Shown here in pieces: positions 13,601 to 40,870 of a stretch of 40,870 nucleotides of DNA. Position 1 is the stretch's first letter, and every line of letters begins with the position of its first letter. Below the pieces are notes generated by a model that saw nothing but the letters and a program-made list of their open reading frames with translations, did not search any database and was not told the origin of the DNA. The position numbers and the translations under genes are program-made. The stretch comes from a virus, in the IMG/VR virus record IMGVR_UViG_3300012263_000005, positions 1 to 40,870 of that record. One strand, written 5' to 3'.

Positions 13601-16600
13601 ATTGGCTAACAGTATTTCGCCAAACTCTGACTGAGCAGTGTCGTAACGGAATTGTTCGCTGTATACTAGTCTATCATTTAATTCTTCAAAGATATAAACT
13701 ACACCTGTGTCTAGTTTGATATTTCTAAAATTAGTGAATCCGTTGTCAAATGTTACGTCACCGTTGTCAAAAGTAGTTGGTATTCTTTGATCGCCATTTA
13801 GACTCGAAACTGCTAAATTATCTTCGCCAAAACTAATATCATATCCAAACTGTTCGCTTTCTTCGTTGTTTGGAGGAGTTAATGTTTGACTTAGTACAAA
13901 CTCTCCATCAACTTGTGTATAAACATAAACCTGTCCTTGATCAGTTTTAGCAGTATCGTCAAGCGGAGCACTGATAGCAAACTGTGTGCCAGCTGGATTA
14001 ATAGTGATCTTTCTAGCCCAGTTGATAGTGTTTTGTAGCTGCGGTGCGTCAATAATTTGATCTAGCAGATACTTGTCGTCCGTTTCTCTGTAGATCAACA
14101 CTTTGGTTTCGCTAGTGCTGCTGGCATCGACTAATTCAGCAGTTACTACAATTACCTGTGCGTCACCACTTACATCATACGCATTGCTAAACTGAGCAAT
14201 ATTTGTAACTGGGTCAAACACTGCTTCATCATAAGATGCTATATCTGTTAGGTTTGGCAGATATCCTACATAATCAATTAGATCAGTTATCTCTGCCCAC
14301 ACAGTTGTTGAAAACGGTTCGTTGGCAGCTATGTTAGTTGTAGCTCTGTAGAATTTGTTGTTGAATCGTACAATGCTACCTACTGCGTAACCATAGCTGT
14401 TGTCCCAGTCTCCTCTGTAGTCAGTGTCCTTGCCTCTGCGCCAGCTGATATTGTTCCAATAAATAGGATCCTGTATTCTGTTTTCAGTTTCTGACATATT
14501 TTTAAGAGCAACGTAATAGTCATCTCTATAAATTACAATATCGCCTTCTGAATACGCAGTAATCTGATATTCGCCACGGAAGCGATCAGTAGGTTTGACG
14601 CCATGACGGAATATTTCTATACTGCCTGGATGTTCTCTTCTCTCTGTTGAGTCATCTCCAGGAAGCACAACACTATTGCTTGAAACAAACAGTGTGTAGT
14701 AGTTGTCAACCTGTTTAATTTTAACTGATTTGCCGAATCCTCTGTTGGCTGTTCTGTACTCGCTTACAAACAGTTTTTGGAATCTATATCTTCCGTCTGG
14801 TAATTTACGGAATATTGCTACAGCGCCTTCACCGTTGGGGCCTGCTGTTCCAAATTCATCAGCTGAAATGTGATATACCTGTGTATAATCTTTGTTTAGA
14901 CTGAACGGTGGGTTTGGTAATCTTTGTACACCTTGTTCTATTATTTCGTTAAAGAAGAAATACTCTTCATCTACCACTGGCGGTATTTCATTCCATGCTC
15001 TAGTATCGTTAAAATCTGAACTGTGTTCAAATACTATTAATTTTCCAACTTCATTTGTTCCGACAGCGATATCATTTCCTGGATCGTTCACAGTTCCGAT
15101 AACACGGTCAACATCGCCCGGGCCTCTAATTATATTGTTGGCGTTGCGTCTTATTTCGTAACGTCCAATATTATTTTGTTGTAACCATGAGCCCGATAAT
15201 ACTTTTACATAAACTCTTACACTATTAAAATTACGTTTCATATACATAATTTCTGCACTACTGGTTGTTGTAGTTGTAAGTGCTAGGCCGCCTGCGCCAT
15301 CTCTCGGAGTTTGTACATCTTCAATAATGTCTCCTACTTGCGGCTCGAAAGGAAATCCACCAAAGTCAAATCTAGTAAATTCAAAATCAATATATCCGTC
15401 CCATAGATCATATATAGTCTGTGTTTTATTAGTTACAGAATAGTTTCCAGTAATTCCAGCAGTTTCTAATGCATCGGTCAAATCTCTATTGTCTAGGTCG
15501 TACACACGGAATTCAAAGCTGTCTCCTGTAGACAATGTGTCAGTAAATAATTTACCTGCTCTTACAACCCAAAGGTCACTAGGAATTTGTTGTTCTGTAC
15601 CGTTAACACCGTCAGCGCCTGCTGGGTCGCCACGGTATGACAATTGAGTAATAACGCTTACTCTATTTCGATTGAGAACATAGTTACCAATTGTAACTAT
15701 TGTGTCTTGAATATTGTAATAAGAATTTAACGATCTATTAGAATCTTGTAGACGAATGTCAGCATACACTAAGCCTCGGCCTATATCATAGTAACGTCCA
15801 TTATTAGAATAACTAGGGGTTTCGATATACCAAAAACCTGCTACTGCATCGGTTGTACTGAATGTATTCTCTTCTGTATAAAATCCTACAAAGTCTACAT
15901 CTTCAATAAACAATTCGCCTGTGATATCAAACGTACCGTTGGTATCTTTTAGATACAATACAGTACTGTCTCTGCGGGTGCCTACATAAGCAACTTCGGC
16001 TTGGCCAGTATCTGTTGTAACTGTATCTCCTACGCCAGGCAGGGTAATAAAAGTCTCTATGAAAAATACATGATCAATCTTTTCTATGATTTCATGATCT
16101 TGCTGTAAAAATTCAGGAGTTATCTGTGGTATTTCGCCGTCAAATGGCAGGAATACATCCAGTGTTGGATATGCAAAGCTGCGTCTGTTCCAAAATAGAT
16201 TTACGACATCACCAGCTTTTGTACCTAGATACATGTCTCGAGGAGCTCTTACTAGTAGGTGATCTACTGTGTTGCCTTCTAGACCAGGGTCGCCTGCAAC
16301 TAGCAGAGTTAAGCTAGTTGAGTCCGCATCTGCGCTGCTGGCTATATTAATGTAATTGTCAAATGTGCTGAATGGCTGTGTTGTGATTTGTGGTAGAATT
16401 TCTCTATTTGCTTTCCAGAGGCTGTCGCGGTCTTTGACTATATCATTTTTATTGTAGGCAGCATCAGCATCAAAGTCGCCTTTGAATCTTGTGTTAACTC
16501 CGCTGGCTGTTGGCAATCCTACTACTAGATATTCGCCGTCTTCAGTTACATCTAAACTAGAAGCAAATCCACTATCTGAAACTGTGAATAAATCACCGTC

Positions 16601-19600
16601 GTCTAATACCAATTCTTGGTCTATATTAAAATTAAATGTTTCTTTGGTTCTGCGATAGTAAAAAATCTTGCCGTTGCCGTCGCCTGGGGCTGCTACAAAT
16701 AAATTGTTGTTGTCAGGAGTAGCTGCTATGTTGGTGCCGAAATCTTGTACAGTGCTGTCAAATTCAGAAAGATTTACAAGTGTCTGACGGTTTACGTAAA
16801 CAGGATCGTTTTCTAAAACTGACCAGTCTCCATTATAATTGTCGACCCACACACGCTGTTGGTTGTACAATTTTTCTTGTGCTAGCTGTGCTAATTCATC
16901 TAAATCGTCAACTCTTACACTTCTTAATTTAGTCAGTATATAACTCTGTGTAGCAAAAGGAACAATTTCATTATCTTCAGGAACCTGTATTTTAACTTCT
17001 TCTAGGCTTACGCTGTCTACTTTGTAGATGCTGTTTATGTTAAATTCTTGTGCTGATCTAACACCTACAAGATCGCCAGCCTGTACATGATCCTTGGCCC
17101 ATTTGTCTAGATAGAGACTGCGTAAAGGTATCCCTTCGCTGTTAAGTTCTTGACGATCTTCTAGTTCAATTACGTTAGCATTGGTTGACACATGTTGGTA
17201 TACGTCCCAGGGTGTAGCATTTACTTCAGTGACCCATACATATTCGCCGAGTCCCAGTTGATTCACATCACCTGTGTTAAGTTCGTCAGTGGTGCCTGCT
17301 ATAAATGTAACATCTTCTTCGTTGACATAGCCTGCTGAACGTATGTATTCGTCAACTAACGGTTTAGTTGGGAAAGGTGTGTGATCATAATCTGCAGGGC
17401 GATCATACATTTCAAAAGGCAGTATACGATAAATTTTATCAAAGTTAACAGCAGGTATACTGTTCACAAGTTCTACTGATTGCGGTGATTCTTGAATTTT
17501 GTCCTGCTTGAGATTGATTTCTATTTGCTGAATATTATCCACAGCACCATATCTGCCGACCTGTAGTGCCCATTCTTCAAAGAATTCTAAGCTTTCTTCG
17601 CCAGCACTGCTGAGTTTGACAAACATCTTGTCAAGAGCATTTTTAGTGCCTTTGTCTTGAATCATTCCTTGATAGAATTTGTATTGGCTTACATCGTCGT
17701 TGATAATGTTTGCTAGATACTGACGCTTTTGATAACCAGTTAGGTGCTGTGCCATCTTTTGTAGTTCAGCATCAAATCCGTCTGTGTCGAGATCGTAGAA
17801 ATCTGCGAACTGATTAATTCTGTAATCAAAGTTTGTGATCAGTTCAGCCTCTGGCTTTTCATTTAATCTAAACCAGAAGTTGCTGTTAAAATCTTTAGTG
17901 CCCGGAGCATTTTCTGTAGCCACATAGAAGAATTGCTTGTATTTTACTAGGCTACCGATGGCATAGTCTTTCCACTGTGTCCATTCTGTGGTTTTGGCAT
18001 CATCAAACACAAATCCAGGAATGTTTAAACCGCCGTTCCAACCGTCTGAACGATATCCTGCTACTTTAATTCTGTCTCTTCTATAACCAGTGCTGGGTTG
18101 ATAAAGAACGTCGTTGAATATAGTACGATTGTTGACCAATACAACATGCTCTTTTTGTACAAGAGGTAACGCAATAGAATACAGGCCTTCGTCTGTGCTA
18201 ACTATTTCAAGACCGAAACTGTTTTCATCTCTTAGCAAACTTCCAAATTCTCTTGGAAGTGATTGTCCGTCTGATTGAAGTAAGCTGTAGTTATAAAAAT
18301 CATCATAGATATCATCAACTACTACAAATTCTCTTTGGAAGAAGAATCTGTTGGCAGCAGGAGAAAGTGTAATAACAGTGCCACTGGCCCAACCCTGTGT
18401 GGTCCAGAATAAGAATTCTCTAGCGGCGGCATTCCAGTTGTTTACACGACCTTCAGATTCTACAAAATTAAAATCAAATCCAAGGTCATTTAATCTTGCG
18501 CCATATCCTAATAGGAAATCAACTACGTCTTGACTGGTTCTCAGTACTGTGCCGTAAGGTATAGAAAGAGGTTTTCTTGATTCAAAGTTTTTCTTAAACT
18601 CAGCAGTTTTTCCTCCTACTATCGGAAGAGCAGGCAGTCTTGCTAGATTGTCTGTATTAAAAGTGTCACCCGAAGTAAAGGTTGCTGTTGCTCTATAGAA
18701 TGTATTATTGAATTGTACAACTTGACCTTCTTGATATCTTTTGTCGTTTTCCCATTCTGCTGCTGTTTCTGATATACCACCCACAGTGACCGCTGTGCTG
18801 CTGGTTCCTGCTTGTGGAGCATAGTAATCGAAGAATGGTGCGTCGTTGTTATAACCTCTAACAATAAATCCGTTGGCTACTTTTTCAACGGCCACACCAC
18901 TGTACACTGCCAGTTCAATAGGCGAGCTGGTATTGAAGAATATTTGATAATTTTCTTGTGGGACAAAGATGCCGCCTTCAAAATTAGCACTGGGTGATCT
19001 GCTTTCTAGTATTAGGTTTAATTTTTGAGTATCGCTAAATCCTGCTAGTTTAAATCCTAGTTGATTTATTAGCGTTGTTAACTGTGTTTGATAATCACTG
19101 TATACTGCTAGTACATCGCTGGCTACTAGATTGTAGATGTAGTTTACAAATCCGGCAGTGAGTATTCTTTCGTCGTCAGCAAATGTGTTAGGGAATACTA
19201 TGTCTGTGTTTGAGATAGGCTTGCTAGATTGTTGATAAACTTTTTGGCCGGCTAGGTTTCTTGATATTCTGCTTACGTCAAATCCTGCGCCCATTGTTTG
19301 TGCAGGCTTGTTTAACAACATACTGGTAATTAACGCAAACGGATATTGTGAACTTCTACGCCATGCTGTTTCTACAGGTGCTTCGTCGCCGAAGTTAAAG
19401 TTGCCAGTGCTCAATCTCAACACAAAATTCTTAACATAGCCGGAGCGTAGGGGAGATTTTAAATTGCCTTGATTGTCTGCTGGGATAAAGTTGGCCAGGC
19501 CGGCACGAACAAATTTATCCTTTACTTGTATTTCTTTACCAGGTTCTCTTACAATGCCCTGCTCTAGGTCTCTCCAAAGTATAAGGTTATCGCTGGTATA

Positions 19601-22600
19601 TGGTGCTGGACCATAAACTGTGTTCCACCATGTTGGCTTGATTGTGAATCCCAACATTTCCCATGGATGTGAGTGAGGACGATCTGTGTCATACGCACGC
19701 TTGTACACACCTCTCCAAAATCCTGGTGCTAGTTCTCCTTGTGGATTGTTAGCATTTGAATAGTTGAATGTAAATTCGTTTAGACGATCGTAGAAGAAAT
19801 TGTCAGTGTAATCGTTGTCAACCAGTTTTAACCATTGTGTAAATTCTGTTAACAGACTTCTGTTTAGTTCTGTTCTAGTAAATTCACTAGATCTAAAATC
19901 GCCGCCTGCAAATCCGTAGACGTCAGTTATATCTTCTGACCATTCAACTTTGATGTTGTTGAATATTCTTTTTTCTAGTTCTAAAAGTAGCTCGTCTCTA
20001 TAGTCTAGGTATGCTCTAATATAGCTGCCGTCGTGACCTCTTACAAAAGGTATGCCCACAGGATACGCATCTATTTCAATATTGTCTTGGCCACCACGAG
20101 TGTTTTCTGCTGATGCTGCCATGTACAGTGTTCTGTTTAGACCTTTGAACTGTAGAGATTCAATTGTGCCTGTGCCTCCCAGAGCTGTGTCTGCTGCTCT
20201 AGCTGCTGAACGTGAAGTGTATACTGGATAGAACCATCCTCTGGCTCCTAGCAGCGGATGACCGTCGACTATAGAACCGTAGATTTTATATGGGCCTTCT
20301 GAAGCGGGCTCGTCAGTTTGGAAAGTATCATCAATAGTTAATTCAGGTTCGTACTTTGGATACAATCCCAACTTGCTAGGTGTTGGGGCAACAAAGCCGC
20401 CATCTGTTGTAGCATATTCTACTATTTCAATAGTGTCGCCTTCTCGTTGATCAGCACTGATAAGAGCATATCCATCGGTGTTAAATGTATAATCTCTGTT
20501 GTGTGTTAGTTGACGACCATTGAGGTAAATCAGCGCACTTCTAGCACTGGGATCGCTTAGAGAAAATGTTCGGCTCAGAGCATAGAATGTTGATCTGGGA
20601 TCTAATACTTCGTATTCGATTCTATTGAACGGACCATAGCCTATCATATCTGAGAAATAGAAAGGCTGACTTTTGATCTTGTCCTTGTTCATTTCTGCTA
20701 GAACTCTGTCAACGTGTATTCTAGTTTCGCCGTCGAATCCCAGTGTTTCGGCAGTTTCTAAAAACACACGCTTGAACTTAGCATATTCATCTCTGCTGTA
20801 TCTCAATGCCTTGACAATGTTGTAGTCTTTGGTGGTAAGGTGATACAAAGGTAGGTTGATTGGTCCGGTGTGCTTTACAAACTTTTTACCGTATCTGTCA
20901 ATATCGCCAAGATCTCTGATGTTGCTGGTTCCTGGGAATACTCCGCTGAACTGATTCAGTTCTTCGACCATGCTGCTAACATGATCAATTACTTCGCCTA
21001 GTGTAAATTCAGTCACGTCTTGGTTCAGTGGATTGCGCTCAAGGTTATGAGGAAATTCATAATATCCGTTGACATTTTTAACTGTTGTGCTGCGAGTTTT
21101 TATTACAACTACGTCGCCTTCATTGAGATCTTGATAAAATCTCACAAACGCTCTTGAATTAATTCTGTCGATTTCATAGTCTTGAAGTCTAACTTTTAAG
21201 CTGTTGTTAACCTGTACAATTACCTTGAGATCATTTAGATCGCCTGCACGATCATAAACGTCTACTTCAAAACTGTTGACTGTTAGATCGTCGGCGATGT
21301 ACTGTGTTACGACATACTGCTTGCTTAGAGCAGGCACACTTGACCATCCGTTAACCCAAGCAAAGTCAGTTCTGGTGCGATATCTTCTTAGGTTTGCTGT
21401 GTCTGTGGTAACTGTTTCTACACCACTGTCAGTTTGTACTGTAAAACTGTCAGTAAGTAAATTGAAGTCAAACAGTATGTCACCGCTGTTTTCAATATTT
21501 CTATATGTTAGAGCAAAATCTAATTCAGGATCAGTCGAGCCGGTGTCCTGTCTATAGCTGAATATTTTTGTCCCTCTAAATGTAGCACTGTCAAACACAT
21601 CAGTATCTGCGAACTCGTTGCCCTGTGGACAGCATAGATCAAACAGCGGAGGTTGGTTGCGCTGTGTTTTTTCCTGTGCTATTTGCCAGTCTGTGCCGTT
21701 GTAGAAAAATGTTTGACCAGTATATCTATTACCCTGTGTAACAAACACTGTTTCGTTTTCTAAAGGATCAGTGTCCGCTGTTTCAACTAGACTAATCTGT
21801 CTGTTATTTCCTATTTCTATAAAGTTTACTTGATAGATTTTACCACGCACTAGTATGTCAGTATCTGCTATAAACAATACTCTCATACCATCAGCAATAT
21901 CAACACCGTCTACGTTATATCCTAATTGACCTTCTATTGTACTAAACACATCTTGAGTAAATGTATCCACAAGATCAACATCACGTTTGGCTTCTGTACC
22001 AAAGTTGTACAGTTTAAGTCCTGCTTCAAATTCAATAATAGGACGCTTGGCTCTAGTTTCTTCGTCAATGTTAACTGGTAGATCGTTGCGCAGAAAACTA
22101 GTCTCAACAACACTTCTATGGAACCAACGGTTGTAGCGACTCCATGCATTTCTATCACGTGCGGCTCTGTTGATTACTAGGTAATCTTTTTCAGCTGGGA
22201 AAGAACTAGCATTAGCAAATGGCAGTACATCAAACTGATCTGAATCAAAAGGTATTAATCTGTTTTCAGAATAAGCTGCTGGAATAATTAGATCAACGTC
22301 TTTGATCAAACAAATCTTGTCGCCAACACCTTCGACGTACCATTGATTCTGATTGTATTCAGCAGGAGTAACGTCACCAGTGAATTGTAATTTCATACCG
22401 TTTGACAGTTCTATTCCATCTGCGTTGCGATAGGTCTTCTTGCCTAGAATATCTGCTTCTACGTCGAGAAAAGTATTTTCTTCTACATCATAGATTCTTA
22501 ACAGACCGCTGGTATCAATACTGTTTTTACTGATATAGTAAAGTCTTTCAGGTGAGTCGGCAGGTATTGTAAATTCAATAGTTCCACGTTCTACATAAAC

Positions 22601-23482
22601 AGTAGCAACTTCTTCTCCATCTTCGCCTAGCTTGCGAATACCGTCTGGATACAGTGTGCTTACATTATCATCAGCTTCAAAGAAAACGCTGCCGCTGCTG
22701 GGAAGGATAATAAAGTCTCCCTGATCGTATTCGTTGCCATAGAGAACGCCGTCAAAAAGTCCGTTAGCTCTTAGACCTTCTGATCCAGCAGTGAGAATAG
22801 CAGTGCCTGGTGTAAACGTTCTGCTGATCGAAAATGCAATAGGATGGCCTGGTGTGTCTATTTCAAATCTGTAGGTCTGTCCTCTGTACAGTTTAAGAGT
22901 TGGGTTTCTAGTAAACCCGTCATTGAACACATAAGCAGTGTTGTCATCTTCTGTCACAGTGGTTACAGTGTAGGTGCTGACGATTTCTCTCTGTTGTCCT
23001 CTTAGAGGAATACTGAGAGGTCCGTTTGGTAGCCAGTAGTATTCACGGAAGTTTACAAATTTGTCCCAGTCTATGTGGGGATCCCAGGCATAGTATTCTT
23101 GGCTGTTTAGACGGTCGTGGTTGTCTGTGTTTGCTCCGAAGAAACGTAGAGATCCTAGATAGTCGTTATAATCTTTGTAGAAGGTAACATTATCCAGTGT
23201 GTCTTTGATTACAGCAGCTGGTTCAAACTGATAATTTTCTCTATCTGCACTTACATCACCGATATAGTTGTCGTCAGCTTTGCGAGCTTTGGCTGTTTTA
23301 CGTCCTACAAATCCACTTAGCTTTTCTGCTACGCCAGGTTGTATCAGCTGATCGATTGTTCCTTGTAGAAACTTTCTGTTGGCTTCTGTTTTAAAAAACT
23401 TCGGTATTAGATCAGATGCTGTGCGCTTGTCATTGCCTGGTGTTGGTAGCGGACTTTCATTTTGATTATCGTTGTACGCCAT
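7694..23482 (-). CDS. Giant tail/baseplate-associated structural protein (5262 aa)
   Basis: One uninterrupted 15.8-kb frame, joined to gp6 by a TAATG overlap. The N-terminal ~170 residues (FFGANTDNHDRL, DPHIDWDKFVNFREYYWLPNG) resemble the start of very large cyanophage virion proteins. Further in are: NG-x-x-L...DY beta repeats near residues 755 and 980; five W-x(n)-Y...G-x-x-V-x-x-x-x-x-x-Y-x-A modules resembling chitin/cellulose-binding CBM5/12 folds (near 1570, 1830, 2330, 2965, 3020); propeller-like repeats between about 2240 and 3330 (LFVAAPGDG, EYLVVGLP, QFAISAPLDD, HVYVGVPSH); GSGY-x-x-x-P repeats near 3720-4150; and a string of NG/DY repeats about 4210-4900. A conserved LPGIVWINSERIEYF block lies near the C-terminus. 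No signal peptide or membrane segment. Probably a baseplate-rim or long-fibre component occupying the place of gp7/gp8 or fibres; which one is uncertain. Confidence 0.85.
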   Translation of the reverse strand: MAYNDNQNESPLPTPGNDKRTASDLIPKFFKTEANRKFLQGTIDQLIQPGVAEKLSGFVGRKTAKARKADDNYIGDVSADRENYQFEPAAVIKDTLDNVTFYKDYNDYLGSLRFFGANTDNHDRLNSQEYYAWDPHIDWDKFVNFREYYWLPNGPLSIPLRGQQREIVSTYTVTTVTEDDNTAYVFNDGFTRNPTLKLYRGQTYRFEIDTPGHPIAFSISRTFTPGTAILTAGSEGLRANGLFDGVLYGNEYDQGDFIILPSSGSVFFEADDNVSTLYPDGIRKLGEDGEEVATVYVERGTIEFTIPADSPERLYYISKNSIDTSGLLRIYDVEENTFLDVEADILGKKTYRNADGIELSNGMKLQFTGDVTPAEYNQNQWYVEGVGDKICLIKDVDLIIPAAYSENRLIPFDSDQFDVLPFANASSFPAEKDYLVINRAARDRNAWSRYNRWFHRSVVETSFLRNDLPVNIDEETRAKRPIIEFEAGLKLYNFGTEAKRDVDLVDTFTQDVFSTIEGQLGYNVDGVDIADGMRVLFIADTDILVRGKIYQVNFIEIGNNRQISLVETADTDPLENETVFVTQGNRYTGQTFFYNGTDWQIAQEKTQRNQPPLFDLCCPQGNEFADTDVFDSATFRGTKIFSYRQDTGSTDPELDFALTYRNIENSGDILFDFNLLTDSFTVQTDSGVETVTTDTANLRRYRTRTDFAWVNGWSSVPALSKQYVVTQYIADDLTVNSFEVDVYDRAGDLNDLKVIVQVNNSLKVRLQDYEIDRINSRAFVRFYQDLNEGDVVVIKTRSTTVKNVNGYYEFPHNLERNPLNQDVTEFTLGEVIDHVSSMVEELNQFSGVFPGTSNIRDLGDIDRYGKKFVKHTGPINLPLYHLTTKDYNIVKALRYSRDEYAKFKRVFLETAETLGFDGETRIHVDRVLAEMNKDKIKSQPFYFSDMIGYGPFNRIEYEVLDPRSTFYALSRTFSLSDPSARSALIYLNGRQLTHNRDYTFNTDGYALISADQREGDTIEIVEYATTDGGFVAPTPSKLGLYPKYEPELTIDDTFQTDEPASEGPYKIYGSIVDGHPLLGARGWFYPVYTSRSAARAADTALGGTGTIESLQFKGLNRTLYMAASAENTRGGQDNIEIDAYPVGIPFVRGHDGSYIRAYLDYRDELLLELEKRIFNNIKVEWSEDITDVYGFAGGDFRSSEFTRTELNRSLLTEFTQWLKLVDNDYTDNFFYDRLNEFTFNYSNANNPQGELAPGFWRGVYKRAYDTDRPHSHPWEMLGFTIKPTWWNTVYGPAPYTSDNLILWRDLEQGIVREPGKEIQVKDKFVRAGLANFIPADNQGNLKSPLRSGYVKNFVLRLSTGNFNFGDEAPVETAWRRSSQYPFALITSMLLNKPAQTMGAGFDVSRISRNLAGQKVYQQSSKPISNTDIVFPNTFADDERILTAGFVNYIYNLVASDVLAVYSDYQTQLTTLINQLGFKLAGFSDTQKLNLILESRSPSANFEGGIFVPQENYQIFFNTSSPIELAVYSGVAVEKVANGFIVRGYNNDAPFFDYYAPQAGTSSTAVTVGGISETAAEWENDKRYQEGQVVQFNNTFYRATATFTSGDTFNTDNLARLPALPIVGGKTAEFKKNFESRKPLSIPYGTVLRTSQDVVDFLLGYGARLNDLGFDFNFVESEGRVNNWNAAAREFLFWTTQGWASGTVITLSPAANRFFFQREFVVVDDIYDDFYNYSLLQSDGQSLPREFGSLLRDENSFGLEIVSTDEGLYSIALPLVQKEHVVLVNNRTIFNDVLYQPSTGYRRDRIKVAGYRSDGWNGGLNIPGFVFDDAKTTEWTQWKDYAIGSLVKYKQFFYVATENAPGTKDFNSNFWFRLNEKPEAELITNFDYRINQFADFYDLDTDGFDAELQKMAQHLTGYQKRQYLANIINDDVSQYKFYQGMIQDKGTKNALDKMFVKLSSAGEESLEFFEEWALQVGRYGAVDNIQQIEINLKQDKIQESPQSVELVNSIPAVNFDKIYRILPFEMYDRPADYDHTPFPTKPLVDEYIRSAGYVNEEDVTFIAGTTDELNTGDVNQLGLGEYVWVTEVNATPWDVYQHVSTNANVIELEDRQELNSEGIPLRSLYLDKWAKDHVQAGDLVGVRSAQEFNINSIYKVDSVSLEEVKIQVPEDNEIVPFATQSYILTKLRSVRVDDLDELAQLAQEKLYNQQRVWVDNYNGDWSVLENDPVYVNRQTLVNLSEFDSTVQDFGTNIAATPDNNNLFVAAPGDGNGKIFYYRRTKETFNFNIDQELVLDDGDLFTVSDSGFASSLDVTEDGEYLVVGLPTASGVNTRFKGDFDADAAYNKNDIVKDRDSLWKANREILPQITTQPFSTFDNYINIASSADADSTSLTLLVAGDPGLEGNTVDHLLVRAPRDMYLGTKAGDVVNLFWNRRSFAYPTLDVFLPFDGEIPQITPEFLQQDHEIIEKIDHVFFIETFITLPGVGDTVTTDTGQAEVAYVGTRRDSTVLYLKDTNGTFDITGELFIEDVDFVGFYTEENTFSTTDAVAGFWYIETPSYSNNGRYYDIGRGLVYADIRLQDSNRSLNSYYNIQDTIVTIGNYVLNRNRVSVITQLSYRGDPAGADGVNGTEQQIPSDLWVVRAGKLFTDTLSTGDSFEFRVYDLDNRDLTDALETAGITGNYSVTNKTQTIYDLWDGYIDFEFTRFDFGGFPFEPQVGDIIEDVQTPRDGAGGLALTTTTTSSAEIMYMKRNFNSVRVYVKVLSGSWLQQNNIGRYEIRRNANNIIRGPGDVDRVIGTVNDPGNDIAVGTNEVGKLIVFEHSSDFNDTRAWNEIPPVVDEEYFFFNEIIEQGVQRLPNPPFSLNKDYTQVYHISADEFGTAGPNGEGAVAIFRKLPDGRYRFQKLFVSEYRTANRGFGKSVKIKQVDNYYTLFVSSNSVVLPGDDSTERREHPGSIEIFRHGVKPTDRFRGEYQITAYSEGDIVIYRDDYYVALKNMSETENRIQDPIYWNNISWRRGKDTDYRGDWDNSYGYAVGSIVRFNNKFYRATTNIAANEPFSTTVWAEITDLIDYVGYLPNLTDIASYDEAVFDPVTNIAQFSNAYDVSGDAQVIVVTAELVDASSTSETKVLIYRETDDKYLLDQIIDAPQLQNTINWARKITINPAGTQFAISAPLDDTAKTDQGQVYVYTQVDGEFVLSQTLTPPNNEESEQFGYDISFGEDNLAVSSLNGDQRIPTTFDNGDVTFDNGFTNFRNIKLDTGVVYIFEELNDRLVYSEQFRYDTAQSEFGEILLANANHVYVGVPSHSAGDSSKGIVVDYRKPKGVTAWNTLRSSVTPVDVSRIEGVFLYNKRTNQIVSYVDYVDPIQGKIPGIVEQELTYKIGFDPAAYNVGDLTDLTVDPSRYWAGEHVGQTWWNINTARFSFAYQGTTAFQKNEWNKLMPDATIDIYEWVESEYLPSQWNQLADTDEGIELGVSGTAPYVNSKYSARLTYDDIAQIFSTKYYYWVQNKRTIPSTRDRSISTFEMANLVARPREQGYRFVSFLSENKFVLNNFDNLVTSDDLVLNIRYNVGSQKLQNTHAQYRLMSDGLDRSRPDADIERKWFDSLIGVDTNNRPVPDPNIPIAKRYGIQNRPRQGMFVNRIEALKQTIERANLVLAENLVVDQYDIDRLFEKEPTPSTATKLYDLAVDTYSELRFVSTNKVTPARLSPVILNGRLIRVDIVDSGRGYKTAPSVDIVGTGVNADIELTINNLGQVVSAEVVNDGSGYNESTLVNTRRFSVLVNSDETLNGKWALYSWNDTANTWFRSSLQDFDVSIYWNYADWYASSFNQFTNIDYEIEGAYLLTSLDDLVGDIVKINNVGTGGWLLLEKVANEDTEDYTINYKTIGRQNGTVQFSDSLYDFSKNTVGFDNRSFDSWFYDNNPAKELRIILETLRDDILVTDLAVEYNQLFFASLRYILSEQQRVDWMFKSSFVNVKHNLGELEQKINFENNKLPSFEAYVEEVKPYSTKIREFISSYTSLDSTNSSVTDFDNAPYYDRLTKRIEASRAVIQDGVLVGANVLSESYPRKHWADNIGYSIKEIQIANPGSGYTSEPRIRFESSEGTGATAKAYLGYGRITEIKITNPGSGYITTPRVVIEGPQTDDGVVAAASAILGNGLVRTPSIRIKFDRTAGVYTFEDLAETETFSGTNINTVFNLEWPMDLDNRKVKISVNGVEQLRSQYTYSNVDYIPTAETLAKEFNYGDVNSAAGPGTQKITDGYSYQKGRITFTRPPANEATITVGYYRPLSMLSAEDRIKFAYTPVAGMLGNDLAQLMSGVDYGGVEVRGFDFGGPSGWDSQGWYTDTWDTFDNTFEDEVFIADGSTIAVELTNVLENGIVYNIYKNGVRLDDPDYDLGTPVNPTAITNSITGDGVTKIIDLDDRGISLLDGDILIVRKITSDGSVIPDPLSYDVALSGGDLSYQTAKGLNPEEIIVDGDGFVTPTTSSGPEELVPGQVLDTLDIKVYTRESGGQGTIYSQSYIMDASITQYALGTTPGNADSVFVKLDNEILADDEYTIDWTDNTVTILNPVDGVELNILTMGLGTQDIMDYGFFTSVEGQTDYKTSVEWVDTASVYVTVDGEAETVTLFEDDNRATFRFDTPTTADKTIYWVIFNTNTEINYSQVSKDTFVANGTDTQFELLSAPFYALPNEHNILVKVGNTILNAGYNKQFTISQLSEREFALETFQQPVGSLGVEDVSVFLNGVEIVSPVQWRLEIANSSIILADEVGAPGDFVEVYVITDGDYRISNKTVILNTAPTNSTTVEIYQFSNHNVLGIERINYDVVARTTLIPEDVQYVTYNRLTVGEIALRTPAVDAEYVWVAVNGELLTPSVDYYVTDDRTKVRLVRLPAANDVIDIIHFTMPVNAPRFAYRQFKDMLNRTHFKRLDTATTALAQPLNYYDLRIEVVDGTDLAEPNKGGNLPGIVWINSERIEYFVKEGNTLRQLRRGTLGTGTPVVHPAAEKLFDQNASKTVPYKDQTLVYNEQTTDNDIIKVTNTFVPGFTITDNNIEVFSSGTRLRKTSLDVFNPTIALDSPKGDTIALKEFGVDPINEFIEKNNSYTIIDTEKYQLDPMLDTRTYKDDSGIIQPTIYTISAAGGSGLFAKFDVTLTNGVVSVSRATNRGFNYKVGDILTILVSELYTSAQIAARNIQDIQLEVTDVYLDENGNSTALGTSTIPANETRITVVKKIGQTWTRLGESLSTAENSIARFLRAGTTELPE
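8770..10860 (-). repeat. Tandem NG...DY beta-repeat region of the giant protein
   Basis: This part of the giant gene encodes divergent repeats of about 80-120 residues with a common core: V-x-V-N-G-x-x-L, a DY or EY pair, then hydrophobic strands ending in a GD-x-I-x-I-like turn. Examples are SVNGVEQL, IYKNGVRLDDPDYDLG, NEILADDEYTIDW, FLNGVEIVSPVQW and AVNGELLTPSVDYYV. Two related copies occur much earlier, at about 21090-21220 and 20420-20540. Repeats were recognised by eye in the translation and are too diverged to show as DNA repeats. Confidence 0.55.
11060..12330 (-). repeat. GSGY-type short repeats in the giant protein
   Basis: Four copies of a G-S/R-G-Y motif are seen in translation: SGRGYKTAPSVDIVG, NDGSGYNES, NPGSGYTSEPRIRFE and NPGSGYITTPRVVIEG. 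The last two are tandem, separated by a TGATAKAYLGYGRITEIKI-type strand. They resemble the short beta-hairpin repeats found in phage fibre and neck proteins. Function unknown. Confidence 0.5.
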
Positions 23483-36145: not shown

Positions 36146-36988
36146 GTGAGAAAAAGAAATTATCTAAACAATAGAGACATTTTATCAGAAATACACAGAT
36201 CTAAAAATACGTTTAACAGTTATGTTGACAAAGAATATCATCAATACGATATTATTCTACTTGATGTTAATAAGATTAACATTCGCACAGTAGCAGAAGC
36301 AAAACGAAATCGTGCGAAACGAATGGCATTAGAAAATTATGAGACCAGAGCAACAGCAGGCGAAAAGATCAAACTGTCTGAATGCGAGATTGATTATAAA
36401 ACTATAGAAAAGACAGACGTAATTTTTAGAATTATGACGTTTGATCATGTACCCGACGAGCCTGGTCGTAAGAAGAATCCAAAAACGGTTGCAGACGGTA
36501 AGACCAAACTGAACTTTCCGCCCTTTCAGCATTGGAAATACAACGACGCAGGCGAATTAGTCTGTGTAGGCAAGAGTCATTGGGCTGGTGGTATGGAAAA
36601 CGGATGTTTTTCAAAAGACCACGGAAGAGCAACCAACAAACTTGCTATGATGTGGATGAAGTTGGTGGATCGATATGCTACTCGTGGCAACGTTCGTGGC
36701 TATACCTACAACGATGAGATGAAGGGTCAGGCCATACTACAGTTATCACAGATTGGCCTACAGTTTGATGAAGCCAAGTCAAACAATCCGTTCGCATACT
36801 ATACCGCTGCGGTCACGAACAGCTTTGTTCGAGTGATCAATATAGAAAAGCGTAACCAAAACATTAGAGATGACATTCTGGAGATGAATGATCTTAACCC
36901 TAGTTACACCAGACTACATGAAGGTGAATGGGAAGCCAGTGTTAAACGCAATGAGTCAGCTGGTGCTACTGGATTTTCAGACAAATAA
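36146..36988 (+). CDS. 55: Late transcription sigma factor gp55
   Basis: Phage sigma factor that joins host RNA polymerase to recognise late promoters, in T4 with gp33 and the gp45 sliding clamp. The conserved core is in the C-terminal half: a KLAMMWMKLVDRYATRG helix, RGYTYNDEMKGQAILQLSQI, then LQFDEAKSNNPFAYYTAAVTNSF and a basic INIEKRNQNIRDD segment, matching T4 gp55's KNPHAYITQACFNAFVQRI region and related sigma-70 region-2 helices. The first ~140 residues extend beyond T4 gp55 (280 versus 185 aa); they include an RMALENYE-type basic helix and a FPPFQHWKYNDAGELVCVG stretch I recall from marine T4-like gp55 proteins. Start is GTG behind a GGAGG site and a perfect sigma70 promoter. Confidence 0.9.
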   Translation: MRKRNYLNNRDILSEIHRSKNTFNSYVDKEYHQYDIILLDVNKINIRTVAEAKRNRAKRMALENYETRATAGEKIKLSECEIDYKTIEKTDVIFRIMTFDHVPDEPGRKKNPKTVADGKTKLNFPPFQHWKYNDAGELVCVGKSHWAGGMENGCFSKDHGRATNKLAMMWMKLVDRYATRGNVRGYTYNDEMKGQAILQLSQIGLQFDEAKSNNPFAYYTAAVTNSFVRVINIEKRNQNIRDDILEMNDLNPSYTRLHEGEWEASVKRNESAGATGFSDK

Positions 36989-36991
36989 CAG

Positions 36992-37020
36992 TTGACTTTT
37001 GTCCAACGATATCATATACT
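36992..37020 (+). promoter_or_regulatory. Sigma70-type promoter for gp47
   Basis: TTGACT (36992-36997), 17-base spacer, TATACT (37015-37020), in the gap after gp55. Predicted transcripts would start near 37027, just before the gp47 ribosome site. This argues against the longer gp47 frame that opens at 36999 inside the promoter. Confidence 0.75.
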
Positions 37021-37032
37021 TAACAAAACTAC

Positions 37033-37036
37033 GGAG
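37033..37036 (+). promoter_or_regulatory. Shine-Dalgarno for gp47 (GGAG)
   Basis: GGAG seven bases before TTG 37044. It supports a TTG start placed immediately before the first catalytic beta-strand. Confidence 0.65.
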
Positions 37037-37043
37037 TTTAAAT

Positions 37044-38057
37044 TTGTTTAACAAAGCAGCGGTATTCACCGACATACATTTTGGCAATAAAAGCAACAGT
37101 AAAGTACACAATCAAGATTGCGAAGATTTTGTAGACTGGTATATTGAGACTGCGCAAGCAAATGGTTGTGAGGTTGGTATTTTTTGTGGTGATTGGAATC
37201 ACAATCGCAACAGTCTTAACCTCACAACCATGGATGCTGGTATCAGAAGCCTAGAAAAACTTGGCAAAGCCTTTGACAAGTTCTACATGTTCGCAGGCAA
37301 TCATGATCTTTACTACAAAGACAAGCGTGATATCAAAAGCACTGAGTGGGCCAAGCACATTCCAGGCATCACAGTGGTAGATGAGATCAAGGTGATCGAC
37401 GATGTAGCACTGGTGCCTTGGTTGGTAGGTGATGAATGGAAGCGTGTAAAGAAGTTAGAGTGCAAATACATGTTTGGACACTTCGAACTGCCTACGTTCT
37501 TAATGAATGCCATGGTTCGTATGCCAGACCACGGTGAACTCACAGTTGAACAGTTGGCAAAACCCAAGTATGTGTTCAGTGGTCACTTCCATGCTCGTCA
37601 GAAACAGGGTAATGTACACTATATGGGCAATGCGTTTCCACACAACTATTCTGATGCTTGGGATGATCGTCGAGGTATGATGATCCTGGACAGAGCCAAC
37701 GATCTAGAACCTGAATATATCAACTGGGAAGACTGTCCAAAGTATAGAACAGTAAAACTGAGCCGGCTGATAGATGAACAGTCTACCATGATCAAAAGTA
37801 AAATGTATCTGCGGGTAGAACTGGATCTGCCTACCAGCTTTGAAGAGGCCAGCTTTGTTAAAGAAATGTTCATTCAACAGTATGGTTGTAGAGAAATTAC
37901 ACTAATTCCGCAAAAACAGATCAATGAGATCAATACTGATCTGGATATTGCTCAGTTCGAAAGCGTGGATCAGATCGTAGCCAACGAAATTGCTGCTCTA
38001 GACACAGAGTCGTATAACAAAAAACTGCTTTTAGACATTTATAGTGGATTAGAATAA
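37044..38057 (+). CDS. 47: Recombination endonuclease subunit gp47 (Mre11/SbcD family)
   Basis: Nuclease subunit of the gp46/gp47 complex, which resects DNA ends for recombination-dependent replication and host DNA breakdown. The calcineurin-type metallophosphoesterase motifs are in order and intact: FTDIHFG (Asp10, His12), FCGDWNHN, AGNHDLYY, FGHFELP and SGHFHARQ; these bind two metal ions. About 337 aa from the chosen start, close to T4 gp47 (339 aa). The frame is open back to a TTG at 36999, but that codon lies within the promoter. TTG 37044 has a ribosome site and puts the first strand (KAAVFTDIHFG) at the N-terminus as in T4. gp46 follows after three bases, as expected for a complex made in fixed ratio. 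Confidence 0.93.
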   Translation: MFNKAAVFTDIHFGNKSNSKVHNQDCEDFVDWYIETAQANGCEVGIFCGDWNHNRNSLNLTTMDAGIRSLEKLGKAFDKFYMFAGNHDLYYKDKRDIKSTEWAKHIPGITVVDEIKVIDDVALVPWLVGDEWKRVKKLECKYMFGHFELPTFLMNAMVRMPDHGELTVEQLAKPKYVFSGHFHARQKQGNVHYMGNAFPHNYSDAWDDRRGMMILDRANDLEPEYINWEDCPKYRTVKLSRLIDEQSTMIKSKMYLRVELDLPTSFEEASFVKEMFIQQYGCREITLIPQKQINEINTDLDIAQFESVDQIVANEIAALDTESYNKKLLLDIYSGLE

Positions 38058-38060
38058 CCA

Positions 38061-38333
38061 ATGGCAATTAAAATCAAAGATTTAACTGTAAAGAACTTTA
38101 TGAGTGTGGGCAATCAGACCCAGGCTGTTAACTTTAACAGGGAACAACTGACTTTGGTGCTGGGGGAGAACCTAGACCAGGGTGGTGATGACACTGGTTC
38201 ACGCAATGGTACTGGTAAGTGTGTTTGTATAAATACTATTGTAAAGGTAAAAAACACTAAAACTGGTGAAATTTACGAAACAACTGTAGGAGATTTATAC
38301 AATGCCGCGATGGGACAACAATCTAAAAGATAA
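38061..38333 (+). CDS. 46: gp46 N-terminal fragment fused to N-intein
   Basis: 90-aa ORF. Residues 1-53 are the N-terminus of gp46, the SbcC/Rad50-like ATPase partner of gp47: IKDLTVKNFMSVGN (first strand), LTLVLGENLDQGGDD, and the Walker A loop up to NGTGK (residues 49-53). At Cys54 the sequence changes to an intein block A (CVCINTIVKVKN) followed by TGEIYETTVGDLYNA, ending at a TAA stop after 37 intein residues. It cannot work alone: the P-loop lacks its Ser/Thr and everything beyond. The missing part is encoded from 39384. A frameshift or pseudogene is unlikely because the break is exactly at a classic intein site and both splice-junction residues are present. Confidence 0.9.
   Translation: MAIKIKDLTVKNFMSVGNQTQAVNFNREQLTLVLGENLDQGGDDTGSRNGTGKCVCINTIVKVKNTKTGEIYETTVGDLYNAAMGQQSKR
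38220..38330 (+). other. N-intein (IntN, 37 residues) of a split intein
   Basis: Begins with the nucleophile Cys1 immediately after the Walker A lysine. Block A is intact. The piece stops well before block B, so the split is far earlier than in most natural split inteins, whose N-part is about 80-125 residues. Confidence 0.85.
38288..38292 (+). promoter_or_regulatory. Shine-Dalgarno for the nested endonuclease (AGGAG)
   Basis: AGGAG lies inside the N-intein coding sequence, nine bases before the ATG at 38302 in another frame. It implies independent translation of the endonuclease. Confidence 0.7.
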
Positions 38334-39408
38334 TTGTATTAATATTTTGGATAATGTTATTAAAAACTTAAAACCTGATCGTAGAGAATTAATTCTCTAC
38401 GAAATTTTATCTTTAGGTATTATTAATAATAAAAAAAAGATTGAGCAATATATCAGAAATAAGTTAGGATTAACTTCTAAACATGCTCGTCACACAACCC
38501 AATACTGGAGTTTACGCGGCTGGAGCGAAAATGAATCTTACGTAAAGTCAAAAGAGAATAAACAAAAAAATGTTAAAAGTGTATATAGCAAGGAATTTTG
38601 GTTAGAAAAAATTAATCCATATACTAATAAACCTTATACTATCGAAGAAGCAGATTTTGAACGTAATTGTCGGCGTCCTATTCGAAAAGAATACTGGGTT
38701 AAAAAAGGATATAACGAAGTTGAAGCTATGCATCTAGCAGAACAAACAAAGAGCGACAATAATAAAAAAGGAGCTAGTCAATCTGCTAACTCAACAGTGC
38801 GACATGTTGCATCAAAACGATGCGTTGACTATTATACCGCTCGAGATTATTCTGAAGAAGATGCCAAAAAATTAGTTTCTGAATCACAAAAGCATTTTTC
38901 TAAAGAAATATGCATAGAAAAATACGGAAAAGAAAAAGGGTTAAAGATTTGGCAAGAAAGACAAGATCGATGGCAAGCTAGATTAAGCGTAAAATCTGAC
39001 GAAGAAAAGGCCAGAATTAATAGACTTAAACTATCAAAAGGAATTACTGTATCAAAAGCAGAAAAAGAAATAATTAATGAAATTAAAAAAGCTAATAAAA
39101 ATTTAATTGTTTATCCGCAGTATTCGTTATCTGTTAACAACAAAAAACAGTATGTTTATGATATTGTAGTTGATAAAAAGATTATCGAATATAACGGCAA
39201 CTTTTGGCATTGTAATCCAAAGATGTATACAGAAGATTATATAAATCCTAGAACTAAGATAAAAGCATCTGATAAATGGACCAGTGATATTAAAAAAATC
39301 GAATATGCTCAAACTCAAGGCTACGTAGTTATGGTTGTTTGGGAAAGTGATTTTAAAGAAAATAAAGAGGAAGTATTAAAAAAATGCATACAATTTCTAA
39401 CACAGTGA
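38302..39408 (+). CDS. Free-standing Vsr-like (EDxHD-type) homing endonuclease
   Basis: 368 aa, in a different frame from both gp46 halves and overlapping the first by 32 and the second by 25 bases. The C-terminal ~120 residues match the very-short-patch-repair-like nuclease fold: a Glu-bearing helix (EKEIINEIKKAN), YVYDIVVDKKIIEYNGNFWH (catalytic Asp and His), then DIKKIEYAQTQGYVVMVVWESD. The first ~240 residues carry repeated basic helix-rich units (EFWLEKINPYTNKPYTIEEA, EYWVKKGYNEVEA, IEKYGKEKGLKIWQERQDRW) that probably bind DNA; similar units occur in phage homing endonucleases. Much more A+T-rich than gp47 or gp46, a sign of transfer. Expected job: cutting uninterrupted gp46 alleles so the whole cassette is copied in by repair. 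Confidence 0.8.
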   Translation: MPRWDNNLKDNCINILDNVIKNLKPDRRELILYEILSLGIINNKKKIEQYIRNKLGLTSKHARHTTQYWSLRGWSENESYVKSKENKQKNVKSVYSKEFWLEKINPYTNKPYTIEEADFERNCRRPIRKEYWVKKGYNEVEAMHLAEQTKSDNNKKGASQSANSTVRHVASKRCVDYYTARDYSEEDAKKLVSESQKHFSKEICIEKYGKEKGLKIWQERQDRWQARLSVKSDEEKARINRLKLSKGITVSKAEKEIINEIKKANKNLIVYPQYSLSVNNKKQYVYDIVVDKKIIEYNGNFWHCNPKMYTEDYINPRTKIKASDKWTSDIKKIEYAQTQGYVVMVVWESDFKENKEEVLKKCIQFLTQ

Positions 39409-39755
39409 AGAGAAAATTTGTTAATAGCATAGACTTATCAGACTTGGAAATTGAGACTGATACTGGTTGGCAGCTAATAACATCGATACATAAAACTATT
39501 CCATATAATGTATGGATAATCAAAACATCTTCTGGTAAGTTCTTAAGGTGTGCAGATACTCATATTCTTTTTAACGGAGAATTCAATGAAGTTTTTGTAA
39601 AGGACTTAATTGAAAATCAATCTACAATTTTAACTGTAGACGGGGTCGAATTAGTTACCAGTATTGTAAAAAAGTCGTACACCGAAAACATGTTTGATTT
39701 AACTGTAGACAGTAATGATCATAGATTTTATACAAACGGAATACTTTCTCATAAC
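39384..39755 (+). other. C-intein (IntC, 124 residues) of a split intein
   Basis: Contains block B-like LRCADTHILF (His60), block F-like MFDLTVDSNDHRFYTNG and terminal block G ILSHN with the penultimate His and final Asn needed for branch resolution. The next residue, Thr, is the +1 nucleophile and also the Walker A threonine of gp46. Together with IntN it makes about 161 residues, a normal mini-intein size without an internal endonuclease domain. Confidence 0.88.
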
Positions 39756-40870
39756 ACCACAATAATCAACGCACTCAGCTATGCTCTGTATGGTCAAGCA
39801 CTTACCAACATCAAACGCAACAACCTAATCAACAAGATCAACAACAAAGGCATGTTGGTCACACTCCATTTTGAAAAGGATGGGCAGGATTACAGGATTG
39901 AGCGGGGACGTTCGCCCAATGTGCTAAAGTTCTATGTGAATGACCAAGAACAACATCTGACTGACGAGAGTCAAGGCGATAGTAGACAGACTCAAGAGAC
40001 CATCAGCACACTGTTGGGTATGAGTCATGACATGTTCAAGCACATTGTAGCACTGAACACCTATTCAGAGCCGTTCTTGAGCATGAGAGCCAACGATCAA
40101 CGTGCTATTATCGAACAACTGCTGGGTATTACACTGCTAACTGAGAAGGCAGATGCTCTCAAAGAGCAGGTTCGTATAACCAAAGACGCAATCACAGAAG
40201 AAACACTGAAGATTGATGCGATTCGCACTGCCAACATCAAGATCGAAGCTGGTATTGAACAGTTGATTGGTAGACAACGTGCTTGGCAATCGAAAAAGAA
40301 GCAGGACATTGCAAAATTAGAAAGTGCCATTGCCCAATTAGAAGAACTAGACATTGATAAAGAGCTGGAAGCACATGAACTACTGCAAAACTGGAACGAT
40401 CTCAACAATGCTAGTACAGCACTGAACAAAGAACGGTCGACTCTTGAAACTGCACTGTTGAGAGCAGACAGTTCGGTTAAGAAGGCTGAAAAGGACATCA
40501 AAGAACTTGACGATGCTATGTGTTATGCATGTGGTCAAGAACTTCATGAGACCAAGAAAGCCGAGATACTTGCTAAAAAGACCAAAGAGCTAGAAGATGC
40601 AATGTTGTATCAATCAGAAGTAGATACAAAGCTTAAAGATGTGATGAAAGGTCTATCAGAAATTGGCGAAATCAATTATAAGCCCAGCACTTTCTATGAC
40701 ACTGCCAAAGCTGCGTATGATCATAGAAGCAACGTAGACGGATTGAAACAATCATTGAATTCAAAAATTGAAGAAGATGATCCTTACCTTGCTCAGATAG
40801 ATGATCTCAAAACCACTGCTATACAGGAAATACGTTGGGACATGGTAAATGATCTCACCAGCTTTAGAGA
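39384..40870 (+). CDS. 46: C-intein fused to main part of gp46 (3' end outside window)
   Basis: Own ATG with GAGGA upstream and an in-frame stop at 39363, so it is translated separately. Residues 1-124 are the C-intein. From residue 125 the gp46 sequence resumes as TTIINALSYALYGQA, the rest of Walker A plus the following helix, matching T4 gp46 KSTMLEAITFGLFGK. Then come a KRNNLINKINNKG-type segment, RIERGRSPNVLKFYV, LLGMSHDMFKHIVALNTY with the Q/lid-region context, and long coiled coils broken by the zinc hook CYAC (residues 380-383, 40521-40532), which dimerises Rad50-type arms. The signature, Walker B and second coil half lie beyond the window. Activity should depend on trans-splicing with the 38061-38333 product. 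Confidence 0.9.
   Translation, partial: MHTISNTVKRKFVNSIDLSDLEIETDTGWQLITSIHKTIPYNVWIIKTSSGKFLRCADTHILFNGEFNEVFVKDLIENQSTILTVDGVELVTSIVKKSYTENMFDLTVDSNDHRFYTNGILSHNTTIINALSYALYGQALTNIKRNNLINKINNKGMLVTLHFEKDGQDYRIERGRSPNVLKFYVNDQEQHLTDESQGDSRQTQETISTLLGMSHDMFKHIVALNTYSEPFLSMRANDQRAIIEQLLGITLLTEKADALKEQVRITKDAITEETLKIDAIRTANIKIEAGIEQLIGRQRAWQSKKKQDIAKLESAIAQLEELDIDKELEAHELLQNWNDLNNASTALNKERSTLETALLRADSSVKKAEKDIKELDDAMCYACGQELHETKKAEILAKKTKELEDAMLYQSEVDTKLKDVMKGLSEIGEINYKPSTFYDTAKAAYDHRSNVDGLKQSLNSKIEEDDPYLAQIDDLKTTAIQEIRWDMVNDLTSFR

Follow-up and report, generated by a model that had tools for sequence, protein, structure and literature searches.

The gp46 gene of the virus described here appears to carry a composite mobile element, made up of a class 1 split intein and a Vsr-type homing endonuclease, a reading to which we give a probability of about 0.88. 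The window, by which we mean the whole stretch of DNA that was analysed, is the complete IMG/VR virus record IMGVR_UViG_3300012263_000005 of 40870 bases. The element occupies 1536 bp (38220-39755) in gp46, between the codons for the Lys and the Thr of the P-loop, and involves three open reading frames (ORFs), all, like the other loci of this region, on the plus strand. The case for it is built from sequence: its anatomy, fold, selection and recent transfer, the enrichment of a promoter-like box within the N-intein, and the frequent loss of this box together with the endonuclease. The parts of the locus are the following:

38061-38333, plus strand: ORF1, 90 residues, of which 53 belong to gp46 (...SRNGTGK) and 37 follow (CVCINTIVKV...QQSKR, stop)
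38061-38219, plus strand: gp46 N-extein, 53 codons ending ...NGTGK (ORF1 residues 1-53 match phrog_77, SbcC-like, E 1.3e-6)
38220-38330, plus strand: N-intein, 37 residues from Cys1, delimited with 41 aligned N-inteins, themselves gathered by a Cys-requiring pattern, and followed by TAA at 38331-38333
38228-38235, plus strand: TATAAATA box in N-intein codons 3-6, proposed late promoter
38289-38292, plus strand: GGAG, putative Shine-Dalgarno (SD) sequence of the endonuclease gene, within N-intein Gly-Asp codons
38302-39408, plus strand: ORF2, putative homing endonuclease of 368 residues, nuclease domain at residues 248-368 (phrog_22677, unknown function, E 6.8e-17)
39367-39370, plus strand: GAGG, putative SD sequence of the C-intein/gp46-C ORF
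39384-39755, plus strand: C-intein, 124 residues at the start of ORF3 (MHTISNTV...GILSHN), ending in Ser-His-Asn (AlphaFold confidence, pLDDT, 91)
39756-40870, plus strand: gp46 C-extein, beginning TTIINALSYALYG and running into the contig end (phrog_77, E 1.5e-48)

The gene is fractured into two ORFs, with an endonuclease ORF separating the intein halves. ORF3 starts 1050 nucleotides past the stop codon of ORF1 and ends with the contig; the gap is filled by ORF2 in another frame, which overlaps ORF1 by 32 nucleotides and ORF3 by 25. The initial annotation, which had placed the stop of ORF1 37 residues past NGTGK and the start of ORF3 1.05 kb further on, was right about these coordinates and about the junctions. 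In the C-extein, Pfam AAA_23 and the Rad50 zinc hook both match below their cut-offs.

That the two flanking segments are halves of an intein is supported by several lines of evidence. ORF3 scores 21.5 bits with the NCBIfam model intein_Cterm (cut-off 15.6), and a profile of 54 C-inteins, including that of the window, matches gp41-1 (E 1.3e-10), VidaL (5.9e-10) and Cat (7.9e-6) in the PDB. The class 1 residues are present in the window, namely C1, H60, H123-N124 and Thr at position +1, and the block-B histidine H60 as well as S122, H123 and N124 are invariant across the 54 aligned C-inteins. In the 97 non-redundant loci of our family table, Ser-His-Asn (SHN) terminates all 93 complete C-inteins and is followed by Thr in 62 and by Ser in 31; in the 4 loci with truncated C-inteins the +1 residue is unreadable. 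An AlphaFold model of the C-intein alone (residues 1-124, pLDDT 91) adopts the HINT fold, with the DnaB mini-inteins as fold matches at Z 13.6 over 108 residues (root-mean-square deviation 2.5-2.6), followed by VidaL at 13.3 and Cat at 13.2. The ratios of nonsynonymous to synonymous substitution (dN/dS) indicate that both halves are under purifying selection, with values of 0.05-0.18 for the C-intein, 0.15-0.38 for the N-intein and 0.15-0.23 for the endonuclease, taken over pairs with computable dS, some of which are near saturation. With a short N-intein of 37 residues and a long C-intein of 124 in separate ORFs, the intein is split early. Contiguous relatives occur in the TerL of phage Magnus, where the intein is annotated as 159 residues, and in the TerL of Vibrio phage Kuja; judged by these contiguous relatives, the window has its split at about the 37th residue of what would otherwise be an ordinary mini-intein.

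The empty sites of related phages define the insertion. Among the 80 best matches to gp46 in IMG/VR, 79 align only from query residue 125, the Thr after SHN, whereas locus L002 aligns over all 495 residues. GTGKTTIINAL is uninterrupted in 78 of the 79 intein-less relatives, and the pattern was not found in L066, where a contig edge leaves just 38 nucleotides before the match. These intact sites therefore identify the element as an insertion between the P-loop Lys and Thr, and it is rare among the closest gp46 relatives. The initial annotation had reported an SHN end followed by TTIINALSYALYG, and had argued that joining Lys to Thr restores the P-loop, which is what the empty sites display. Its broader proposal, that gp46 is a fractured gene whose P-loop holds a split intein, likewise stands, supported by the splicing residues, the fold, purifying selection, the empty sites and recurrence in other contigs. 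The endonuclease, the signs of homing and the promoter box go beyond that annotation. The gp46 ATPase would then be active only after trans-splicing.

The element also seems to have travelled as a unit. Between the window and L002, identity is 99.1% in the N-intein (111 nucleotides), 99.9% in the endonuclease zone (1053 nucleotides) and 99.7% in the C-intein (372 nucleotides), or 99.8% for the element overall, and falls to 76.1% in the N-extein (159 nucleotides) and 68.5% in the C-extein (1100 nucleotides). The drop coincides with both splice points. A near-identical element with flanks that diverge exactly there implies that the unit moved recently between phages.

ORF2 is predicted to encode the endonuclease of this unit. 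Its model (pLDDT 88.8, predicted template-modelling score 0.51) has the EDxHD catalytic-domain fold at residues 248-368, comparable to Vsr (1cw0, Z 11.3) and to I-Bth0305I (3r3p, Z 10.9). The sequence match is weak, with TIGR00632 at E 0.014, below the cut-off, and Vsr chains at E 0.06-0.08; E296, H303 and E348 are invariant in the alignment of the endonuclease family. Kinship of the gap ORFs was checked by BLAST in a first set alone, where all 52 non-redundant ORFs of more than 150 residues between intein halves form one connected group. The endonuclease gene has its start within the N-intein codons; in 33 of 47 non-redundant loci its end lies 25 nucleotides into the C-intein ORF. A strong SD sequence precedes 30 of 47 non-redundant endonuclease ORFs and 22 of 57 C-intein ORFs, compared with 6.4% of random 14-mers. 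From their own SD sequences and starts, the endonuclease and the C-intein/gp46-C protein are probably translated independently. Judging from the length of the N-intein, the endonuclease gene would lie at an early, N35-like position and yet give a separate protein. In some relatives (L096, L116, L122, L128, L131, L133 and L155) the endonuclease has the part common to the family, but its end was read by eye as GIY-YIG rather than Vsr-like, with Pfam T5orf172 above the cut-off in L096 and just below it in L122, and a Pfam scan of the L128 and L131 endonucleases giving no match; the cutting domain thus seems to have been exchanged. Pfam names found on the N-terminal parts are IgA0_D2, ROS_MUCR and DNA_pol_lambd_f. 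Two loci that have lost the endonuclease, L094 (5915-6025) and L156 (5924-6025), retain an ORF of 33-36 codons which, like the full gene, begins within the N-intein and runs 25 nucleotides into the C-intein ORF, and which is perhaps a translational relay, or there by chance.

How widespread is this arrangement? Scans with single C-inteins gave 8, 23 and 2 loci; 83 relatives of the C-intein were confirmed in a first scan, and a profile scan found at least 539 stretches in IMG/VR. The C-intein also has matches in 318 phage records; of the matches listed, most carry a terminase annotation. A C-intein profile search of a genome collection left 2 loci from 35 pattern matches, L217 and L218, both on contigs of metagenome-assembled bacterial genomes that are perhaps phage or prophage. 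The family table was reduced from 286 stored sequences to 202 with a C-intein, 186 with an N-intein and finally 97 by similarity. Split architecture is present in 89 of these 97 non-redundant loci. Assigned from the residues that flank the insertion, the hosts are TerL-like in 55 loci, gp46/Rad50-like in 29 and others in 13, the latter read as including helicase-like or ClpX-like ATPases; host names rest on P-loop patterns and reading by eye rather than on a family search. A Cys after Gly-Lys starts the N-intein in all 97 loci. However, the N-intein search demanded GKC, GKS or GRC and dropped 16 sequences without it, so that the common insertion point is partly a product of construction, which tells against taking it at face value. 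A junction-free profile recovers the N-intein in 94 of the 97 loci, with an identical start in 92 and one within 9 nucleotides in 2; it did not recover that of L169, L178 and L180, and we regard these three as doubtful. Applied to the 16 dropped sequences, the same profile gave a weak match in L184 and none in 13. L232 and L233, also among those dropped, have Ser-Lys before the Cys, so the Gly-Lys rule has exceptions.

How, then, would an endonuclease gene lying within an intein be expressed? Codons 3-6 of the N-intein, TGT ATA AAT ACT, contain TATAAATA, the T4 late-promoter sequence, of which NATAAATA is the cyanophage form (PMC2984593). The window thus combines a T4-type late-promoter sequence at 38228-38235 with a homologue of gp55, the factor expected to read TATAAATA promoters, which is encoded just upstream:

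36146-36988, plus strand: late sigma factor, gp55-like (phrog_12791, 'sigma factor for late transcription', E 3.3e-77)
36999-38057, plus strand: gp47/SbcD-like nuclease subunit, upstream neighbour of gp46 (phrog_100, E 2.1e-62; Metallophos)

Across the family the box accompanies the endonuclease. Taking a gap of more than 600 nucleotides as endonuclease-sized, TATAAATA occurs in 39 of 57 gp46 and TerL split loci with such a gap, where 5.1 would be expected from synonymous codon choice. Within the first 45 nucleotides of the N-intein it is found in 18 of 24 gp46 loci and 21 of 33 TerL loci (expected 1.9 and 3.2), and NATAAATA in 21 of 24 and 23 of 33 (expected 3.8 and 5.2). Split loci without the gap have TATAAATA in 2 of 19 cases (1 of 5 gp46, 1 of 14 TerL) and NATAAATA in 1 and 2, respectively. 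For contiguous inteins the numbers are 0 of 5 without an insert and 1 of 3 with one (NATAAATA: 1 and 3), and for loci in other hosts 0 of 3 without a gap and 1 of 10 with one, this one being the doubtful L180. Leaving out L169, L178 and L180, the box is present in 39 of 56 gp46/TerL loci and in 0 of 8 with other hosts. A first, smaller table had given 35 of 47 against 1 of 10 (Fisher P 2.5e-4, relatedness ignored). The codons ATA-AAT are used in all 38 gap loci with Ile-Asn at residues 4-5 (7.8 expected), and elsewhere in these loci TATAAATA has a density of 0.07-0.15 per kb. In several TerL loci the box is shifted to offset 5, 14 or 20 instead of 8, in different residues. The window itself holds 8 NATAAATA sites on both strands, 5 of which start 12-33 nucleotides upstream of an ORF; these ORFs are two baseplate-wedge genes, a tail-fibre gene, an unnamed ORF and the gp55-like gene.

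Natural variants speak to the same link. L142 and L195 have both lost the endonuclease, and in the first 100 nucleotides of the N-intein the sole difference of L142 from L141 and L143, and of L195 from L199, lies in the box, which reads TATGAATA in L142 and TATAGATA in L195. In the comparison of L102 with L108, and of L195 with the less close L196, 1 of 9 N-intein differences is in the box. From these patterns, TATAAATA is probably a late promoter for the endonuclease, and the sequences suggest that the box tends to go when the endonuclease is lost. Several observations count against this. L249 has lost its endonuclease yet keeps AATAAATA, identical to its partner L248; L111 and the truncated L192 have a short gap yet contain TATAAATA; 13 of the 57 gp46/TerL gap loci lack even NATAAATA, as do 9 of 10 loci in other hosts. 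TATAAATA is not enriched window-wide, with 2 found and a shuffle mean of 3.57, and the box and family counts ignore relatedness. The box as a universal feature of the family is rejected, given the 9 of 10 other-host loci without it. As a separate observation, synonymous sites of the N-intein (window 38220-38300) have a proportion of differences (pS) of 0.23-0.34 against L088-L092; those of the endonuclease, the C-intein and the exteins, with pS of at least 0.59, are less conserved. The box and the SD sequence would explain part of this conservation, perhaps not all.

The box may have a further role in RNA. GUAUAAAU (38227-38234), which lies at the box, is complementary to AUUUAUAC (38293-38300), directly before the endonuclease AUG. 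RNA predictions were made for the 36 of 39 box loci with a located endonuclease start region. Predicted pairing between box and start averages 4.07, compared with 1.00 in synonymously reshuffled copies. The cost of opening the start region is 6.1 kcal/mol for RNAs that extend up to 40 nucleotides further upstream, 5.7 kcal/mol for RNA from just before the box and 3.3 kcal/mol for RNA from after it (n=36 throughout; Wilcoxon P 6e-6 and 2.7e-4, respectively, versus after-box RNA). Two results point the other way: the pairing exceeds 4 in only 19 of the 36 loci, with a median rank of 0.16 among reshuffled copies, and the accessibility of the SD sequence does not differ, being on average 0.47 unpaired in early and 0.50 in late RNA. 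That the box in early RNA pairs with the endonuclease start and hides it is thus a tentative model, to which we give somewhat less than even odds; the pattern is suggestively reminiscent of I-TevI.

One TerL subclade appears to show another solution. In L146/L212, L196 and L199-type loci and L248/L250, the intein frame is open through 298 codons to the C-intein, and the endonuclease is encoded in the +1 frame, over 279 codons counted from its ATG. Four overlapping intein/endonuclease pairs were recoded:

L146, 5098-6013: overlapping intein/endonuclease pair
L196, 2607-3522: overlapping intein/endonuclease pair, 96% alike with L199
L199, 2607-3522: overlapping intein/endonuclease pair
L248, 2607-3522: overlapping intein/endonuclease pair

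The real sequences have 0 stops in the intein frame. When the endonuclease was recoded synonymously, in 2000 trials per sequence, the intein frame acquired 15-18 stops on average and at least 6. Under the same recoding the window has 57 stops with 59 expected. By this measure, the intein of the subclade seems still contiguous, with its endonuclease wholly in an overlapping frame.

The splicing, cleavage, homing, promoter activity and RNA-switch activity that we infer could be connected as follows. Three proteins would be made separately, gp46-N with the N-intein, the endonuclease, and the C-intein with gp46-C. The intein halves would bind each other, and trans-splicing would rebuild GTGK-TTIIN and with it the ATPase; the endonuclease would cut intein-free gp46 alleles, into which the entire unit would then be copied. 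In T4-type phages with an endonuclease, the N-intein codons would carry a gp55-type late promoter together with the ribosome-binding site of the endonuclease, which would accordingly be made late, and in transcripts from upstream promoters the box could pair with the endonuclease start region. The codons of the N-intein would then serve several purposes at once, as catalytic N-intein, late promoter, ribosome-binding site and, in early RNA, antisense arm silencing the endonuclease. An out-of-frame endonuclease at the early, N35-like loop, equipped with its own signals, would escape the steric bar on in-frame endonucleases, with the fracture of the gene as the price; the promoter would tend to go with the endonuclease, and one TerL subclade would remain contiguous with an overlapping endonuclease. 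We lean slightly towards this last part of the scheme, from the multi-purpose codons of the N-intein to the overlapping endonuclease.

Other explanations of the locus have to be set against the composite mobile element. The initial annotation had itself raised the worry that the two parts of gp46 belong to different molecules in an assembly; the join would then have been made across a repeated intein. The near-identical element in two phages would make such an error conceivable, and contigs L086, L087, L172 and L177 end within or just after the element. The linkage of the window is nevertheless repeated in L082 and L083, which have its arrangement with 100% identity over the compared 1200 nucleotides upstream and 1100 downstream, L002 and L085 consistently share the other type, and the split architecture recurs across the non-redundant family, which partly answers this worry. 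On the other side stands L084 (1-4842), where an upstream flank of the L002 type (100% over 315 nucleotides) meets a downstream flank of the window type (99.6%) around an element with the differences of L002 and small indels that break the N-intein and endonuclease frames; its sequence marks L084 as either a homing-linked recombinant or an assembly chimera. The relatedness of upstream and downstream flanks is also poorly correlated (rho 0.02 for the window and 0.01 for L088, with a median of 0.55 over the loci), so that chimerism or old recombination in gp46 may be involved. Both points count against our reading, with the limit that the flank test ranks 71 intein-free relatives about 66-74% identical to the window and is therefore uninformative for it. 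On balance, an artefact as the source of the whole arrangement is highly improbable. It is also improbable that the intein halves no longer splice and that gp46 works as two non-covalent subunits, in the manner of phage Aeh1 NrdA or phage 25 DNA polymerase. Non-splicing split enzymes of T4-like phages do exist (PMC2988022), but here the break is inside the P-loop, between Lys and Thr, the splicing residues are kept family-wide, and both halves are under apparent purifying selection. Programmed frameshifting, +1 into ORF2 and then -1 at A AAA AAA (39378-39384) into ORF3, would give one intein-endonuclease protein. The A_AAA_AAA run does stand in the ORF2 frame at the ORF3 ATG, and in 34 of 47 loci the frame of the N half is also that of the C half; the two frames differ in the other 13, however, many downstream ORFs have their own SD sequence, and a seven-A run near the C-intein start is found in just 3 of 67 split gap loci, for which reason we reject this reading as the most improbable of those considered.

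A different objection concerns the box alone, which could be kept as an operator of the endonuclease, or by codon or splicing constraint, and not as a promoter. It lies in coding sequence, and I-TevI is described as binding an operator that overlaps its own late promoter (PMC2988022). Against this, the box moves among positions and residues, and it is altered in the endonuclease-less L142 and L195, whose N-inteins are otherwise unchanged over 100 nucleotides. In 4 loci tried, the N-intein had no resemblance to the homing site in excess over shuffles, and an I-TevI-like operator resembling that site is rejected. A non-promoter function of the box is thus unlikely, and a late promoter remains the reading we prefer.

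The window further contains an ORF of 5262 residues (7694-23482, minus strand), amid tail and baseplate genes.

What makes the element worth following up? 'Possibly gp46, gp47' are listed among exonucleolytic functions in intron homing (PMC2988022), and split inteins would gain as a host a recombination ATPase which may assist homing in its own right. The locus catches a split intein together with its endonuclease in the act of moving as one unit, and it yields a testable idea of how a gene for an endonuclease can be expressed, unfused, from within an intein. For protein engineering, the family is a source of many natural inteins that are split early. Should the box indeed be a promoter, codons for protein splicing would at the same time act as a phage-stage switch, for which natural loss mutants are available. 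In the literature searched, titles and abstract starts mention neither an intein in gp46 nor a promoter within intein codons, though other papers may describe parts of this.

Finally, we would like to place the element among known systems. Dassa et al. in 2009 reportedly described fractured genes in which a split intein and a free-standing Vsr-like endonuclease ORF lie between two gene parts. Such genes resemble the gp46 locus, with two gene parts, a split intein and an endonuclease between. The atypically split inteins GOS-TerL, AceL-TerL and Cat-TerL share with the gp46 family a short N-intein and a long C-intein, and TerL, their host, is also the commonest host in our loci (55 of 97 by pattern). 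The N-intein has 37 residues in GOS-TerL (37 + 115) and 25 in AceL-TerL (PMC11766414), whereas the N-part of naturally split inteins is typically about 100 residues long (PMC10189870), as compared with about 37 in the window. The C-intein of Cat resembles that of the window (profile E 7.9e-6, fold Z 13.2), as does VidaL (PDB 6vgv; E 5.9e-10, Z 13.3, the C-intein alone compared). The splice residues differ, with Cys1/Thr+1 in the window, Ser1/Cys+1 in GOS-TerL and Cys1/Cys+1 in AceL-TerL (PMC11766414). Unlike these TerL inteins, the one in the window has a gp46 host, and the endonuclease gene and late-promoter box between or inside its halves may set it further apart.

The endonuclease has counterparts of its own. 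I-Bth0305I, an EDxHD homing endonuclease, has a nuclease-domain fold like that of ORF2 (3r3p, Z 10.9), but ORF2 sits in a split intein and some of its relatives look GIY-YIG-like at the end. The ShiLan element, an out-of-frame HNH in a phage methylase gene, carries its endonuclease in another frame (PMC11855218), as do TerL loci L146, L196 and L248. The ShiLan element is without detectable splicing domains, whereas the present elements are inteins, and a start, an SD sequence and a NATAAATA box of its own belong to the endonuclease in them. A parallel to the proposed regulation is I-TevI of the T4 td intron, which has a late promoter inside the element and whose start is hidden by structure in early RNA but free in late RNA (PMC2988022), as we propose for the window. 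However, the signals of I-TevI lie in a group I intron, while those of the window lie inside intein codons, where their effect on RNA is predicted.

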